A DNA stretch of 64,000 nucleotides from Hellea sp. (lineage in GTDB: Bacteria > Pseudomonadota > Alphaproteobacteria > Caulobacterales > Maricaulaceae). Shown here one piece after another: positions 11,114 to 37,487 of the stretch (within the stretch, counting starts at the first letter, position 1; every line of letters begins with the position of its first letter). The stretch covers positions 1-64,000 of the forward strand of contig JAQXEH010000065.1 in NCBI GenBank assembly GCA_029250925.1. Direction: 5' to 3'. Made by a program: the position numbers and the translations under genes. A model generated the notes under the pieces. That model was given only the letters and a program-made list of their open reading frames with translations, did no database searches and was not told where the DNA came from.

Positions 11114-12869
11114 ACTCACTTCAAATAAAGATGATTATCATTTAATTAGCAGATTATGGACAAACTATATATGGCCTCAAAAAAGAAGACTATTACTTGC
11201 TCTTTTATTTATGGCATTATTAGCAGCGACTACAGCTGCCTACACTTTTATAGTTAGCTTTGTAATTGATGAAGCTAATAACCTAACAAAAAAAAACAAC
11301 ACAATTAAGCAAGCACAATCTTATGCTTTTTCAGTATTGCCTTTATTAATTTTTATTACAGCAACATCTGGTTTATCTAATTATCTACAAAGAATCTTAA
11401 ATAATTTGATTGCTCTAAAAGCAGTTACGAAGATGCAAAAACAAATGTTAAAATCAACCTACAATAGTGATTTTGGTTCCTTTAAACAAAAAAAATCTGG
11501 AGATATAATTTCTAAATTCACTAATGACATAACAGTGGTATCTAACGCCTTAATTCGCACAATGTCGAACCTTATCGCTGCTTTTCTTACAATTGCTCTT
11601 ACAATTGCAGCCATGTTATATCAAAATTGGCAATTATCATTGATAATGACTGTCTTCATTATTGCTTACTGGCCCATCTTATCAATATCTAAACGCATGC
11701 GGGGAGATGCTAAAAATGTTCAAGATCAAATTGGAAAAATAACTTCTAATTTAAAGGAAAGTTTTAACAATATGCGGATTGTAAAAACCTATAATTTAGA
11801 AATATTAGAAAATAGTAGGTTAAGTAAAAATTTTGATGCACGAGAACGTCTTCAAATGAAATTAGTTACCGAACAAGCACGGGTTGATCCAATACTAGAG
11901 GTGCTAGGGGGACTAGCCATAGCTGGGGTAGTAATCTTTGGGGTTTACCAAATATCAAATGAGACGGCTAGCGCTGGCTCAATAGCAGCTGTTTTAACTG
12001 GCTTGTTGATACTCTCACCTAAATTGCGAGCACTAGGAACACTTAATAATGTAGCTCAAGAGGGACTTGCTGCACTGACTAGAATATTCACTGTGATTGA
12101 TGAAGAAGCAAATATACAAGACACACCTCACTCCCAAGAGCTTATTAAGATAAACGGAGAGATTAGTTTTGATAATGTTTACTTTAAATATCCAGATGGA
12201 AATCTAGCCTTAAAAGGGGTTTCATTAATTGCTCGACCTGGCGAAACAGTCGCGATAGTAGGTTATTCGGGAAGCGGTAAGTCTACAATTATGAATTTAA
12301 TACCTAGATTGTATGATGTGCAATCTGGTTCCGTTTGCATAGATGGGCATGACATAAAAAATATTAAAATAAAAAATTTGAGAAATAATATAGCTTTGGT
12401 TTCTCAAGAAATAATATTATTCAATACTACTATAGCTAACAATTTAAGCTATGGGAATGACAGCGCTGATATGGATGATATAATTCATGCAGCCAAGCAA
12501 GCAGATGCACATAAATTTATTTCAGAATTACCATTTGGATACGAAACTGTACTTGGTGAAAATGGGCATGGCCTTTCTGGTGGACAAAAACAACGATTAT
12601 CAATTGCTAGAGCACTTTTAAGAGATGCCCCAATTTTATTGATGGATGAAGCCACTTCAGCAATAGATTCATTAAGTGAAGATACTATAAAAAAGTCCCT
12701 CAAAGACTTTATAATAAATAAAACAACTATAATAATTTCTCACAGACCAAACTCCGTGAAAAATGCTGATAGAATATATGTACTAGATAATGGAAACATT
12801 GTTGAAACAGGGAGACATAAAGATCTCATAAAAAAAAGATCTGGGGTTTACTCAAAATTACAAAATTAA
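11106..12869 (+). CDS. MsbA-like ABC transporter, fused permease and ATPase
   Basis: A 587-residue half-transporter of the exporter type. The first about 320 residues hold six predicted membrane helices, followed by an ATPase with Walker A GYSGSGKST (from about 386), signature LSGGQKQR (about 489) and Walker B ILLMDEATSAID (about 511-522). In this alphaproteobacterial neighbourhood it is thought to flip a lipid, probably lipid A or a phospholipid, across the inner membrane. This is inference from context. The TTG start overlaps the preceding stop by 8 bp, indicating translational coupling. Confidence 0.9.
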   Translation: MVKLTSNKDDYHLISRLWTNYIWPQKRRLLLALLFMALLAATTAAYTFIVSFVIDEANNLTKKNNTIKQAQSYAFSVLPLLIFITATSGLSNYLQRILNNLIALKAVTKMQKQMLKSTYNSDFGSFKQKKSGDIISKFTNDITVVSNALIRTMSNLIAAFLTIALTIAAMLYQNWQLSLIMTVFIIAYWPILSISKRMRGDAKNVQDQIGKITSNLKESFNNMRIVKTYNLEILENSRLSKNFDARERLQMKLVTEQARVDPILEVLGGLAIAGVVIFGVYQISNETASAGSIAAVLTGLLILSPKLRALGTLNNVAQEGLAALTRIFTVIDEEANIQDTPHSQELIKINGEISFDNVYFKYPDGNLALKGVSLIARPGETVAIVGYSGSGKSTIMNLIPRLYDVQSGSVCIDGHDIKNIKIKNLRNNIALVSQEIILFNTTIANNLSYGNDSADMDDIIHAAKQADAHKFISELPFGYETVLGENGHGLSGGQKQRLSIARALLRDAPILLMDEATSAIDSLSEDTIKKSLKDFIINKTTIIISHRPNSVKNADRIYVLDNGNIVETGRHKDLIKKRSGVYSKLQN

Positions 12870-12876
12870 TAAAATC

Positions 12877-13536
12877 TCACTCTCTTCTCAAAATCAATTC
12901 TGTTATTGGGTTGCCAGACCATTGTTTCATAAAATTTACTTTAAGTTCAACTGGATCGTAAACATCCAAAACCCAATTTAAAAAGCTTATTTCCTTTTGA
13001 CTGGAATATAATAAATATTCCAAGAAAAAGAAGTCAAGTATACCTGTTTTACCTTGTTTAATATGCAAATACTTTAGGCTCAACTGACTTATCGCGACTT
13101 CAATCGGTTCATTCATATGGAAGTGTTTATAGAGTACTCCCATAAAACCAGTTCTATCTGCTCCAGACTTACAATGCATAATTGCTGGATACTCTATTTC
13201 ACTGAATAATTTCTGAGCATTTACTATGGTTTCTTTAGAGTGAACATCTCGACTATAAACCCGAAAGTCTATCATATTAATTGCGTTTTGATCACATGCC
13301 TCCTTTTCTAGAAGGTAGTAACCTTTATCACTTTTTCCTCTTAAATTGATATTTGTCTTTATACCCCGTTCTCTCCACTCTTGTATTCGCCTTGGCGATG
13401 GTTGGTTTTCACGGTACATTTCCTTGCCAATTTCATGATGGTTAGAAAACTTGTAACGTAAAAATCCATGATCAGAAAAAATTAAGTCCTTATACGCCCT
13501 TTTTCTATCAGCCTTTTTATTGAGATTAAGCGACAT
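12877..13536 (-). CDS. Tyrosine/dual-specificity protein phosphatase-like protein
   Basis: The 219-residue protein has the Cx5R phosphatase loop HCKSGADRTG at residues 121-130, with nucleophile Cys122 and Arg128. The upstream segment TNINLRGKSDKGYYLLEKEAC is typical of DSP-like bacterial phosphatases. Asp97 in YSRDVHS could be the general acid. There is no signal peptide. It stands opposite to the lipid A cluster, its stop only 7 bp from that of the ABC exporter and its start 48 bp from that of the DUF374 gene. Its substrate may be a phosphoprotein or a phospholipid; the location suggests an envelope role. Confidence 0.82.
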   Translation of the reverse strand: MSLNLNKKADRKRAYKDLIFSDHGFLRYKFSNHHEIGKEMYRENQPSPRRIQEWRERGIKTNINLRGKSDKGYYLLEKEACDQNAINMIDFRVYSRDVHSKETIVNAQKLFSEIEYPAIMHCKSGADRTGFMGVLYKHFHMNEPIEVAISQLSLKYLHIKQGKTGILDFFFLEYLLYSSQKEISFLNWVLDVYDPVELKVNFMKQWSGNPITELILRRE

Positions 13537-13584
13537 TTACTATAAGCCTTTATTTTTACGAGGTGTATAGCAGGGAGTAATAAA

Positions 13585-14307
13585 GTGTTCAAACGCTTCA
13601 TAAAATTTAAATTAATACAGCTAATTTTAGGCTTACTAATTGCTATATATATGACAATAGTTAAGCATACTACCAAGTGGAGCATCGAAAACGAAGCTGA
13701 GTTAAGCGAAATTATTAAAAATAATGAAGCATTCATCCTAATAACATGGCACTCGCGAATCTTGATGTTGAATGCTGCCTGGACTAATAAAAAGCTCATC
13801 CCTTCTGTACTAATATCGAAATCGCGCGATGGAGCTATTATAACTAATGCTTGCCGATTTCTAGGAATTAATACAATTCGTGGCTCCATAAATGCAAATA
13901 AGCAAAATAATAAAATTAAGGTTTCAAAAAGGGGAACATTAGCAACCCAGGAAATTATCAAAGCTCTGGATAATTCAGGCTGTATAGTCATAACACCTGA
14001 TGGCCCTAGTGGTCCAAGGCAGCATTTAAAAAAAGGAGCTCTTCGTATCGCACGTATTACTGGCGTTCCAATATATCCTATAATATTTTCAGTGCACAAA
14101 AGAAAAGTTTTTAAAACATGGGATAGTTTTGTATTACCTTTTCCCTTTAATAAAGGTAAAGTCATTTGGACAAATCCAGTTTATATTCCAAAAGAAACTA
14201 CTGATAGAGAGCTTAAGGAAATTCAAATAAAAATAGAAAATAAAATGAACGACTTGCTAGACTCTGCAGATTCCGCATATGGACACCATCCAGTTAAAAA
14301 GACTTAG
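13585..14307 (+). CDS. DUF374-family lysophospholipid acyltransferase-like protein
   Basis: A 240-residue membrane-associated protein with an N-terminal hydrophobic anchor. It has the DUF374 signatures TWHSRILML (His at the acyltransferase position), SRDGAIITN, FLGINTIRGS and PDGPSGPRQHLKKGALRIA. The family is related to lysophospholipid acyltransferases and lies between the exporter and waaA in many alphaproteobacteria, suggesting acylation of an envelope lipid; the reaction is not established. The start is GTG at 13585 preceded by AGGGAG. It ends 2 bp before waaA. Confidence 0.87.
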   Translation: MFKRFIKFKLIQLILGLLIAIYMTIVKHTTKWSIENEAELSEIIKNNEAFILITWHSRILMLNAAWTNKKLIPSVLISKSRDGAIITNACRFLGINTIRGSINANKQNNKIKVSKRGTLATQEIIKALDNSGCIVITPDGPSGPRQHLKKGALRIARITGVPIYPIIFSVHKRKVFKTWDSFVLPFPFNKGKVIWTNPVYIPKETTDRELKEIQIKIENKMNDLLDSADSAYGHHPVKKT

Positions 14308-32763: not shown

Positions 32764-32788
32764 ACATCTAGAATCATTGGGGAGATTC

Positions 32789-34606
32789 ATGAGTCAAATG
32801 AAACCGACGAATATCGATAATCCAGATTATTTTCATAAAGTAGTTGATTGCCAATGGGCTTGCCCAGCTCATACTCCAGTACCTACTTATATCCGCCAGA
32901 TTGCCCAAGGAGATTACACTGGGGCTTACTTAACTAACAGGGAGTCAAATGTTTTTCCTGGTGTTCTAGGTCGTGTATGTGATCGTCCATGTGAACCAGC
33001 ATGTCGAAGAGGTCGGGTTGAAGAAAAGCCAGTAGCAATTTGCCGTTTAAAAAGGGTAGCAGCCGATCATAGAGATAATATCAAAGAATATTTACCAAAA
33101 AAACCTTCGGTTATGAATGGAAAAAAAATTGCGCTTATAGGAGCAGGGCCTGCGTCTTTCACTGTTGCAAATGATTTAGCACCGCTAGGGTATCAATGTA
33201 CAATTTTTGAAAAGCTCTCGAAACCAGGTGGCTTAATGCGGTCCAATATCCCAGCTTTTAGGTTGCCTGAAGAGGTATTAACAGAAGAATTGAACTACAT
33301 TCTTAATATGGGTGTTGAACTAAAATTAAACACCCCAATTAATAGTATGAAATCATTATTAGATGAGGGGTATGATTCAATTTTTGTTGGCTCAGGGGCT
33401 CCAAAGGGTAAAGACCTCAATTTACCTAATCGATGGGATGATAAAGATCATATCCATATTGGTATTAATTGGCTAGAAGAAGTAGCTTTCGAGCATACTA
33501 AAACAATAGGAGATAATGTTCTAATAATTGGTGTAGGAAACACAGCTATGGACTGCTGTAGAACCTCTCTTCGACTGGGGGCTAAATCAGTTAAAGTAAT
33601 GGGAAGAAAACCTCGATCATTTTTTAAAGCTTCTATATGGGAAGTTGAGGATGCTGAGGAAGAAAATGTAGAAATTATAATTAACCATTCACCAGAAGCT
33701 TTTATAACACAAGGTGGCCGTTTAACCGGTATGCTTTTCTCAGTTATAAAACATAGTTTTGATAACGATGGTAATATTATAAATAGTCAACCAATAGAGA
33801 AAGTTACTATACCATGTGATGATGTTATTTTAGCAATAGGTCAAGAGAATGCATTTCCTTGGATAGAACTTGATACAGGAATTAAATTTGATAAATGGAA
33901 TGTTCCAATTATTGATAAGAAAACTTTCGAGTCGACAAAAAAGGGTATATTTTTCGGTGGAGACTCCGCATTTGGTCCCAAAAATATAATATGGGCGGTG
34001 GAGCATGGTCATCAAGCTGCTATTTCTATTCATAACTATTGCCGCGGCGTCTCATTAGAACAAAGAGTATCAAATAAGATTGAATTAAAATCGACTAAAA
34101 TGGGTATGTTTGAGTGGAGTTACTCCAACTCCTATGACGGATCAGAACGAAGAAAGATGGAACACCTTGATTTAGTCAAGCGGTTTTCAAAACTTAATAC
34201 CGAAGTAGAAATTGGCTTTTCCCCGGAACAAATAGCTACTGAAGTCCAAAGGTGTCTTAACTGCGATATACAAACTGTATTTGATGCACCAAAGTGTACA
34301 GAATGTGATGCATGTATAGATATTTGCCCTGTTGAGTGCCTCTCAATAACAGAAAATACAAATAATGAAGAGATACTCAGAGAAAATTTAAATTTCGAAA
34401 AAAATGAATTTAATCAATCACTATTTATTTCCGAGGAGTTAAAATTTACTAATCGAATAATGGTTAAAGATGAAAACATCTGCCTGCATTGTGGATTATG
34501 TGCCGAAAGGTGCCCTACCGCTGCTTGGGACATGTCCGAAGGAATAGTTAAAATACATCATGCCGATACTCAGGATCAAAACTACGCCTCGGAGACTGCC
34601 GAATAA
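32789..34606 (+). CDS. GltD/NfnB-like FAD-NAD(P)H oxidoreductase with C-terminal 2[4Fe-4S] ferredoxin domain
   Basis: The 605-residue start was chosen at ATG 32789, 4 nt after GGGGAG. The N-terminal Cys-rich cluster domain has Cys21, 25, 64, 68 and 72. An FAD fold (IGAGPASF, about 117-124) and an NADPH fold (GVGNTAMD, about 247) follow, as in the glutamate synthase small subunit. The last 110 residues carry two ferredoxin motifs, CTECDACIDICP and CLHCGLCAERCP. It heads an operon with KorA- and KorB-like genes. It is inferred to carry electrons between the 2-oxoacid enzyme and NAD(P)H. No glutamate synthase large subunit is nearby. Confidence 0.88.
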   Translation: MSQMKPTNIDNPDYFHKVVDCQWACPAHTPVPTYIRQIAQGDYTGAYLTNRESNVFPGVLGRVCDRPCEPACRRGRVEEKPVAICRLKRVAADHRDNIKEYLPKKPSVMNGKKIALIGAGPASFTVANDLAPLGYQCTIFEKLSKPGGLMRSNIPAFRLPEEVLTEELNYILNMGVELKLNTPINSMKSLLDEGYDSIFVGSGAPKGKDLNLPNRWDDKDHIHIGINWLEEVAFEHTKTIGDNVLIIGVGNTAMDCCRTSLRLGAKSVKVMGRKPRSFFKASIWEVEDAEEENVEIIINHSPEAFITQGGRLTGMLFSVIKHSFDNDGNIINSQPIEKVTIPCDDVILAIGQENAFPWIELDTGIKFDKWNVPIIDKKTFESTKKGIFFGGDSAFGPKNIIWAVEHGHQAAISIHNYCRGVSLEQRVSNKIELKSTKMGMFEWSYSNSYDGSERRKMEHLDLVKRFSKLNTEVEIGFSPEQIATEVQRCLNCDIQTVFDAPKCTECDACIDICPVECLSITENTNNEEILRENLNFEKNEFNQSLFISEELKFTNRIMVKDENICLHCGLCAERCPTAAWDMSEGIVKIHHADTQDQNYASETAE

Positions 34607-36438
34607 TGAGTGAATATCCAGAAATTAGGCTGAATGATTTTGTAATTAAAATTGGCACAGTTAATGGTACTGGTTCTGCTTCAGCCAATGAATTACTCAT
34701 GAAAACTATATTTCGTATGGGTGTACCAGTAGTAGGGAAAAACATATTTCCATCTAATATCCAAGGACTGCCAACTTGGTACGAGATACGTGTAACAGGT
34801 GATGGGCATGCTGGACGTTCTGGCGATGTTGATATAATGGTCGCTATGAACCCCGAAAGCTATGAGCGTGACCTAAATAGTATTTCGAGTGGCGGCGTGC
34901 TCATATATGATAGTACTTGGCCGAGACCTCACTTCATGAACCGTGCTGACATAACTGTAATCGGCATTCCGCTATCAAGCCTTTGCAATGCAGAATTTGA
35001 AGTGGCAAGGTCGAGAATACTTATGAAGAATATGGCATATGTTGGGGCTGTAGCGGCTATTATTGGACTTGATATGTCTATAATACAAAATCTAATTAAT
35101 GAAACATTTGAAAAGAAAAAAAAATTAGTGCCCGCCAATATCAAGGCAGTAGATTTAGGTTTTAACTACATAAAAGATAACAAACTAAACAATGAAAAAT
35201 TCTTCATTAAAGCACTCAATAAAACATCCAATAAAATAATGATTGACGGAAACACTGCCGCTGGAATTGGAGCAGTATATGCGGGGGCAACATTTGGTTC
35301 TTGGTATCCAATCACTCCATCAACATCATTAATGGATAGTTTTTCAAAATACTGTGACATATATAGAAAACACCCTAAAACTAATGAAAATTTGTATTGC
35401 ATCATTCAAGCTGAAGATGAACTATCCGCTGCTGGTATGGCAATGGGTGCAGCTTGGAATGGAGCCAGAGCATTTACCCCTACATCAGGTGCTGGCATAT
35501 CACTTATGAGTGAGTTTATAGGCTTTGCTTACTATGCCGAAGTTGGGCTCGTTTACTTTGATATTCAACGCGTTGGTCCTTCAACAGGAATGCCGACGAG
35601 AACTCAGCAATGCGATATAAATCTTACTGCCTATGCAAGTCACGGGGATACAAAGCATATAGTCCTATATCCAGCTGATCCTGGTGAATGCTTCACAATG
35701 TCAGCACAAGCTTTTGATTTAGCTGAAAGGTTTCAAACACCAGTATTTTTTCTATCCGATTTAGATATAGGAATGAATGATTGGATGGTTGATGAGTTGG
35801 AATGGGAAGAAAACTACACCCCCGATAGAGGAAAAATAATGACCTCAAAACAACTAGCTGATATAGAGGTTTACAGCAGATATTTAGATATTGACGGAGA
35901 CTATATACCCTATAGAACATTACCAGGAACTGACCCAAAAGGTGCTTACTTCCTTAGAGGTTCCGGACATAACAAATATGGTAAGTATACTGAAATAAGC
36001 GCTGAGTATAAAGAAGTTGTAGATAGGCTTTTACTTAAATGGAAAAGTGCTGCACCATTTACCCCACAACCCATTATAATCAAAAGCCAGAAAAAAACTA
36101 ATTATGGGGTTATTGCTATAGGAAGTTCTGATGGAGCTGTTCGTGAAGCATGCATTAACCTAGAAAAACAGGGCATACATATTGATTATATGAGGATTAG
36201 GTCATTTCCTTTTGCAGACTCTGTTGAAGAGTTCATCGTTGAACACGACTTAGTCTTTATTGTTGAACAAAACCGAGATGCACAATTAATGAATTTATTA
36301 CTCACTGAAACAAATGTGCCACGAGAGAGTTTAGCGTCCATTAAATACTATGCAGGTCAACCTCTAAATTATAAATTTGTATATAAAGCTTTATTCACTG
36401 GAATAATGGCTAATTCAAAAAATAAGAAGACAGCATGA
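34606..36438 (+). CDS. korA: 2-oxoacid:acceptor oxidoreductase, fused gamma-alpha subunit
   Basis: A 610-residue protein with a gamma domain (about 1-195, GTGSASANELL, GDVDIMVAMNP) joined to the alpha or pyrimidine-binding domain (about 210-600). The alpha part has GNTAAGIGAVYAG, SWYPITPSTSL and RVGPSTGMPTRTQQ, the KorA signature. Such enzymes decarboxylate a 2-oxoacid (often 2-oxoglutarate) to acyl-CoA, reducing an iron-sulfur carrier. The fused gamma-alpha form is like that of aerobic mycobacterial KorA. It is coupled upstream by TAATG and downstream by ATGA. Substrate is not decided by sequence. Confidence 0.9.
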   Translation: MSEYPEIRLNDFVIKIGTVNGTGSASANELLMKTIFRMGVPVVGKNIFPSNIQGLPTWYEIRVTGDGHAGRSGDVDIMVAMNPESYERDLNSISSGGVLIYDSTWPRPHFMNRADITVIGIPLSSLCNAEFEVARSRILMKNMAYVGAVAAIIGLDMSIIQNLINETFEKKKKLVPANIKAVDLGFNYIKDNKLNNEKFFIKALNKTSNKIMIDGNTAAGIGAVYAGATFGSWYPITPSTSLMDSFSKYCDIYRKHPKTNENLYCIIQAEDELSAAGMAMGAAWNGARAFTPTSGAGISLMSEFIGFAYYAEVGLVYFDIQRVGPSTGMPTRTQQCDINLTAYASHGDTKHIVLYPADPGECFTMSAQAFDLAERFQTPVFFLSDLDIGMNDWMVDELEWEENYTPDRGKIMTSKQLADIEVYSRYLDIDGDYIPYRTLPGTDPKGAYFLRGSGHNKYGKYTEISAEYKEVVDRLLLKWKSAAPFTPQPIIIKSQKKTNYGVIAIGSSDGAVREACINLEKQGIHIDYMRIRSFPFADSVEEFIVEHDLVFIVEQNRDAQLMNLLLTETNVPRESLASIKYYAGQPLNYKFVYKALFTGIMANSKNKKTA

Positions 36439-37487
36439 CCTCATTTATAAAACCTCGGATAAACCGGAAAAGTGCTCCCACAAATAAAATTGGTTTAACA
36501 CGGCAAGATTATGATGGTACGATGTCCACTTTGTGTGCGGGATGTGGACATGATAGCGTTACGGCAGCACTAGCCCGGGCTTTTTTCGAATTATCAATCC
36601 AGCCCCATAAAGTAGCAAAAATTTCTGGTATAGGTTGCTCTTCAAAGACAACATCATATCTCCTTAAAGAAGCTCATGGTGCTAATACTGTACATGGACG
36701 AATGCCTTCATTCGCTACGGGAGCTATGGCGGCGAATAACTCATTAACTTATTTTGGGGTATCTGGGGATGGAGATAGTCTTTCAATTGGAATAGGGCAA
36801 ATGATTCATGCTATGCGTAGAAATACAGATATGCTCTATGTATTAGAAAATAATGGAGTTTACGGTCTGACTAAGGGCCAGTTTTCGGCTTCAGCTGACA
36901 TCGGATCGGTAGCAAAAAAAGGGATAATAAATGATCAACCCCCTATTGATCCTTGCGCATTGGGTTTATCTGTTGGTGCTAGTTTTATTGCTCGATCATT
37001 TTCAGGCGATAGAAAGCAATTAGTGCAGCTAATTAGGGCTGGATTAATGCACAAAGGTTTTGCTTTAATCGATGTGATATCACCATGTGTAAGCTTTAAT
37101 GATCATAAAGGTTCAACAAAATCATATGAACATACTTACAAATATTATAATAAATTTGTACATGCCGATTATATACCACCAGCAGAAGAAATTAAAACGG
37201 CTTACGATGCGGGTGAATCAATGCCAATAACTCTCCATGATGGTGGAAAAATTATCCTTCGTAAACTAGATGCAGATTATAACCCGGCAGATAGATCCTC
37301 AGCATTTTCTAAAATTATAAATAATAATATAAAGGAGATAGCTACAGGCTTGATATATATCGATGAAAACCTTGCCGATATGGCAGAACAAAACAATCTC
37401 GAAACAAGACCTCTTAATCAGGTACCATATAAAGAGTTAAATCCAGGATTAGATAATTTAAAACAGATACAAAAATCATTCCGTTAG
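36435..37487 (+). CDS. korB: 2-oxoacid:acceptor oxidoreductase, beta (thiamine diphosphate) subunit
   Basis: A 350-residue TPP-binding subunit with GDGDSLSIG (111-119) as thiamine motif. Cluster cysteines are seen at Cys34 and Cys37 (LCAGCGHD), Cys68 (GIGCSSK) and about Cys217 (SPCVSFN), so the proximal [4Fe-4S] site appears complete. HAMRRNTDM and ENNGVYGLTKGQ are typical of KorB. It completes the three-gene operon; no separate ferredoxin gene follows, consistent with the ferredoxin domain of the first subunit doing that job. Confidence 0.9.
   Translation: MTSFIKPRINRKSAPTNKIGLTRQDYDGTMSTLCAGCGHDSVTAALARAFFELSIQPHKVAKISGIGCSSKTTSYLLKEAHGANTVHGRMPSFATGAMAANNSLTYFGVSGDGDSLSIGIGQMIHAMRRNTDMLYVLENNGVYGLTKGQFSASADIGSVAKKGIINDQPPIDPCALGLSVGASFIARSFSGDRKQLVQLIRAGLMHKGFALIDVISPCVSFNDHKGSTKSYEHTYKYYNKFVHADYIPPAEEIKTAYDAGESMPITLHDGGKIILRKLDADYNPADRSSAFSKIINNNIKEIATGLIYIDENLADMAEQNNLETRPLNQVPYKELNPGLDNLKQIQKSFR

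Follow-up and report, generated by a model that had tools for sequence, protein, structure and literature searches.

Introduction

A 2-oxoglutarate:NADP+ oxidoreductase is known from the aromatic-degrading bacterium Azoarcus evansii, now classed in Aromatoleum (Ebenau-Jehle, Boll and Fuchs 2003, as cited in PMC10134865 and PMC8163825). PMC10134865 presents a tree of GltD, NfnB and DsrL homologues that includes one A. evansii oxidoreductase subunit, together with NsoC. Within this superfamily, the distal iron-sulfur cluster of NfnB is held by C39, C42, C47 and C100 and the proximal cluster by C51, C90, C96 and E117 (PMC7596348); in StnC, where bifurcation has been lost, K170 ligates the proximal cluster in one state (PMC10482914). 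The authors who delimited DsrL left out look-alikes adjoining 2-oxoacid oxidoreductase genes, so genes of the kind described below had been seen previously. In StOFOR1, the substitutions K49I and D468A abolish activity with 2-oxoglutarate.

Here we describe three genes, korC, korA and korB, in a 64,000-nucleotide stretch of DNA from Hellea sp. (contig JAQXEH010000065.1, positions 1 to 64,000; the window). We consider it probable that their products form a single alpha-beta-gamma 2-oxoacid:NAD(P)+ oxidoreductase resembling the A. evansii type, whose most likely reaction would be 2-oxoglutarate + CoA + NADP+ -> succinyl-CoA + CO2 + NADPH.

Results

The three genes lie on the forward strand of the window at 32789–34606 (korC), 34606–36438 (korA) and 36435–37487 (korB), linked by TAATG and ATGA overlaps. 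A likely ribosome-binding site, GGGGAG at 32779–32784 of the same strand by direct reading, precedes the korC ATG at 32789; an in-frame TTG is also present at 32777. The korC product, 605 residues long, is a GltD/NfnB-type subunit that combines iron-sulfur, FAD and NAD(P)H parts and carries a 2[4Fe-4S] domain at its C-terminus. It matched the Pfam families Fer4_20, Pyr_redox_2 and Fer4_7, and a fold search returned NfnABC, StnC, NfnB, GltD and dihydropyrimidine dehydrogenase. The 610-residue KorA (Pfam POR and POR_N) is a fused gamma-alpha subunit with a YPITP motif at residues 234–238, and scored above the curated cut-off of TIGR03710, the 2-oxoacid:acceptor oxidoreductase family of that fused form (545.5 versus 482.75 bits). 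The 350-residue KorB (Pfam TPP_enzyme_C and PFO_beta_C) fell below the curated cut-off of the beta-subunit family TIGR02177 (209.4 versus 261.9 bits), yet it retains the TPP domain and four cysteines, C34, C37, C68 and C218, which were invariant in an alignment of 38 homologues and are predicted to bind one [4Fe-4S] cluster. No ferredoxin gene lies within the three-gene operon. A first-pass annotation of the DNA had read the overlapping operon, its subunit make-up, four candidate KorB cluster cysteines and the lack of a ferredoxin gene in the same way, and the coordinates, Pfam domains and alignments bear that reading out.

KorC and KorA orthologues occurred in the identical 41 of 385 alphaproteobacterial genomes, about a tenth, with KorC identities of 49–100%. 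In all 41, korA came directly after korC in the same orientation and the aligned ends lay −1 to 110 bases apart, although relatedness among the carriers means that these amount to fewer than 41 independent events. KorA matches were spread over 29 of the 277 genera in this sample. Six further genomes of the 385 held KorC-like proteins of only 33–37% identity, and KorA of the same type was absent from them. The first-pass annotation had asked whether the proteins co-occur, which they do, and had warned that the first gene might turn up with unrelated partners; this was looked for and did not occur. In a phylum-wide sample, KorC was found in 24 of 398 genomes. The order korC-korA-korB on one strand held in 59 of 59 fetched loci with all three genes at a minimum identity of 45%, a count of loci rather than species, as some share a genome. 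These loci belong to Maricaulales, other Alphaproteobacteria, Gamma- and Betaproteobacteria and Acidobacteriota; the closest named relatives are Hellea MAGs, at 88–95% identity, which makes the host a Hellea-like alphaproteobacterium of marine origin. When neighbours were compared in 34 loci, only korC, korA and korB recurred widely and no fourth gene did: judged from coordinates, the other large clusters overlap kor genes in other frames, and the remaining ones appear solely among the acidobacterial loci or in a handful of loci. Because the unit is conserved across phyla, the operon is far beyond chance. It is a real, conserved and self-contained module and, judging from sequence, its three products very probably form one complex.

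On plasmid 2 of Aromatoleum aromaticum EbN1, the same three genes keep this order and overlap at their ends; identities are 51–53%, and all checked cluster ligands are conserved. They are annotated there merely as an FAD-dependent oxidoreductase and generic 2-oxoacid oxidoreductase subunits. The plasmid is conjugative, and two acyl-CoA dehydrogenases, an FAD-dependent oxidoreductase and a CBS-domain protein precede the operon (L158, 105–4853). Elsewhere, at four loci (L042, L043, L051 and L073), korA and korB are separated by gaps of roughly 380–780 bases with short open frames, dissimilar by eye. One locus labelled Cyanobacteria (L067) groups, operon and flanks, with the acidobacterial loci L066–L072, and its bin may be misnamed. 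An apparent korC-korA fusion in a Gemmatimonadota contig (L077) was rejected, as its reading frame crosses a run of undetermined bases (N) and continues as a protein unrelated to KorA.

The N-terminal iron-sulfur segment of KorC (32849–33052; this and the following parts are on the forward strand) contains C21, C25, C64, C68, C72, C85 and K88. The FAD and NAD(P) Rossmann domains occupy about residues 113–418 (33125–34042; Pfam Pyr_redox_2 at 113–407), a CxxC formed by C489 and C492 lies behind them (34253–34264), and the C-terminal 2[4Fe-4S] domain (34295–34513; Pfam Fer4_7) carries C503, C506, C509 and C513 followed by C565, C568, C571 and C575. All of these cysteines, K88 and R273 were invariant in 96 homologues. 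Alignment with NfnB and StnC suggests roles for the N-terminal residues: C21 and C72 align with the distal-cluster ligands C47 and C100 of NfnB, C25, C64 and C68 with its proximal-cluster ligands C51, C90 and C96, and K88 stands at the position of NfnB E117, aligned with StnC K170. C85, though invariant, falls in neither predicted N-terminal ligand set. Residues 1–20 hold no counterpart of NfnB C39 and C42, and we infer that C489 and C492, a counterpart of the N-terminal RCxxC of NfnB and GltD, complete the distal cluster. In ten GltD/NfnB-type paralogues the RCxxC occurs at residue 45–66, whereas it sits behind the FAD domain in KorC, in a protein from locus L021 and in the first of two from L081; a further locus, L083, is laid out differently. 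An equivalent motif likewise follows the FAD domain in the structures 8oh5, 9bov and 9n5u. This shift of the CxxC from its N-terminal place in NfnB may have gone unremarked earlier. An AF2 model of KorC built from 23 sequences had a mean pLDDT of 65.5, with good FAD and NAD(P) domains and values below 50 over most iron-sulfur regions. The L081 protein, from 8001, is 1050 residues long and joins a SCGKCVPCRMG motif, which we take to be NuoF/HydB-like, to a GltD-like part; a second GltD/NfnB-type gene follows at 12378–13610.

The Hellea assembly (1.84 Mb, 88 contigs, 92.6% complete) encodes sucA and sucB above their cut-offs, and sucA exceeded its cut-off in 54 of 57 KorC carriers, with one more carrying the gene split over the ends of two contigs. 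At most a sucA fragment was found in the two others, which are 88% and 95% complete. The loss of 2-oxoglutarate dehydrogenase (OGDH) that the first-pass annotation had suggested looking for is therefore not what these genomes show. The Hellea genome also encodes a haem-copper oxidase, and bcrB had no match in it. Two further ideas were discarded: a lack of other NADPH sources, as zwf and pntB are present in the Hellea genome, and a link to benzoyl-CoA reductase, as bcrB occurred in just one of 17 genomes tested. In one of the alphaproteobacterial genomes (G607), KorAB comes in two kinds. The first lies near benzoyl-CoA reductase (L153, 14722–17381), with KorC absent from the 20 kb read there; the other belongs to a KorCAB operon on a different contig (L154, 6621–11388), and the kor genes beside bcrB are of a different type, 28 and 39% identical. 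In the Hellea genome, near-equal weak matches at G000:C13:3657-3827 and G000:C55:3657-3827 possibly reflect duplicated MAG contigs.

Conserved pocket residues lean toward 2-oxoglutarate as the substrate. KorB K71, which is invariant, and L145 align with K49 and L123 of the StOFOR1 beta subunit, and KorA R322 and T237 align with the carboxylate-binding R344 and T256 of StOFOR1. S453 of KorA stands at the position of alpha-D468, and the pocket therefore differs from that of StOFOR1. The physiological substrate of the same complex could instead be another 2-oxoacid, such as pyruvate or a branched-chain acid, or a broad range of them; StOFORs take both pyruvate and 2-oxoglutarate, the NCBIfam assignment reaches the general 2-oxoacid family alone, and the conserved neighbours in the 34 loci offered no clue to the substrate. 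With K71 invariant and the A. evansii enzyme named after 2-oxoglutarate, we regard this as unlikely. As to the nucleotide, the phosphate motif of KorC reads G/A/V-R-K/S, with R273 invariant and the next residue K or S, rather than the YRR of NfnB, and is only partly kept.

The first-pass annotation had also allowed that the enzyme runs in reverse, as an NAD(P)H-driven reductive carboxylation, which would serve anaplerosis or CO2 fixation. OFORs can work in either direction, and 6n2n, the solved structure closest to KorA, belongs to an enzyme that serves in a reverse TCA cycle. The potential of 2-oxoglutarate/succinyl-CoA + CO2 is about −0.52 V and that of NADP+/NADPH −0.32 V. These textbook values give oxidation an advantage of about 39 kJ/mol, and therefore NADPH alone should not drive carboxylation. 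Bifurcation, moreover, has left no signature: no NfnA, HydBC or ETF partner was common to the 34 kor loci compared, and the proximal cluster of KorC has Lys, not Glu. The carboxylation alternative thus found no support, and we think it very improbable. The same features bear on whether KorC itself bifurcates, the complex also giving reduced free ferredoxin. NfnB, of the same fold, does bifurcate; KorC R158 aligns with NfnB R201 and StnC R239, and the A. evansii ferredoxin is reportedly regenerated by an NADP-dependent oxidoreductase (PMC8163825). However, the invariant K88 replaces the Glu ligand of NfnB, as in StnC, where bifurcation is lost, and the operon contains no NfnA gene, which leaves little likelihood for a bifurcating KorC.

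Discussion

In the 2-oxoacid:NAD(P)+ oxidoreductase that we favour, KorA and KorB would decarboxylate the 2-oxoacid on TPP and pass electrons singly to the KorB [4Fe-4S] cluster. From there they would enter the C-terminal 2[4Fe-4S] domain of KorC, acting as a tethered ferredoxin, and move through the putative distal cluster (C21, C72, C489 and C492) and proximal cluster (C25, C64, C68 and K88) to FAD, which would reduce NAD(P)+ by hydride transfer. Such a complex would work alongside OGDH, not in its place. The direct coupling of 2-oxoacid oxidation to NAD(P)H put forward in the first-pass annotation is supported by the strict linkage of korC and korA (the same 41 among 385 genomes, with the two genes side by side in every one) and by the A. 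evansii-type enzyme. By analogy, it is supported as an already known kind of enzyme, because the A. evansii enzyme is known and the tree places its subunit in the GltD/NfnB superfamily. More tentatively, and with somewhat more doubt than confidence, KorC could represent a lineage of that superfamily with a distal cluster drawn from both ends of the protein and a lysine-ligated proximal cluster. It would then act as a tethered ferredoxin:NAD(P)+ reductase arm that does not bifurcate, through which aerobic bacteria obtain NADPH from an enzyme that ordinarily depends on ferredoxin.

The operon is real but ordinary, since an aromatic degrader already provides an enzyme of this kind and roughly one in ten of the sampled alphaproteobacterial genomes carries the genes. 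What it adds is that a predicted ferredoxin-free, NAD(P)-linked 2-oxoacid oxidoreductase is a common, portable three-gene module of both Proteobacteria and Acidobacteriota, and that the carriers examined for OGDH retain it too. Our guesses for why both enzymes are kept are NADPH supply, or an OGDH bypass when oxygen is scarce or the cell is oxidatively stressed.

Several described systems share parts of this architecture. The 2-oxoglutarate:ferredoxin oxidoreductase 6n2n/6n2o, which we take to be from Magnetococcus, has the same fused gamma-alpha and beta subunits, but the entry lacks a KorC-type subunit. Among solved structures, those nearest to KorC are StnC and the large subunit of NfnABC (8oh5, 9bov, 9n5u), which share the proximal-cluster Lys and the RCxxC behind the FAD domain, but are larger, have other domains and are partnered by bifurcating HydBC-like subunits. 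DsrL has the same domain order, with N-terminal Fe-S, FAD, NAD(P), linker and C-terminal 2[4Fe-4S], but its partner is sulfite reductase, and a gene linked to 2-oxoacid oxidoreductase subunits, as korC is to the adjoining korA and korB, falls outside DsrL as its authors delimited it. NfnB, GltD and dihydropyrimidine dehydrogenase share the core fold of KorC and differ in having an N-terminal RCxxC and, in NfnB, a proximal-cluster Glu. The A. evansii enzyme was studied in anaerobic aromatic metabolism, unlike the setting of the Hellea genome, with its aerobic oxidase and no bcrB match. Our tie to it runs through architecture, genus and the phylogeny that cites it, and should be read as an analogy: like the complex predicted here, it oxidises a 2-oxoacid and has a subunit of the GltD/NfnB superfamily, it reduces NADP+, the likely acceptor in Hellea too, its congener EbN1 has the identical gene order, and in Hellea a GltD-like subunit is likewise encoded together with KorA and KorB.
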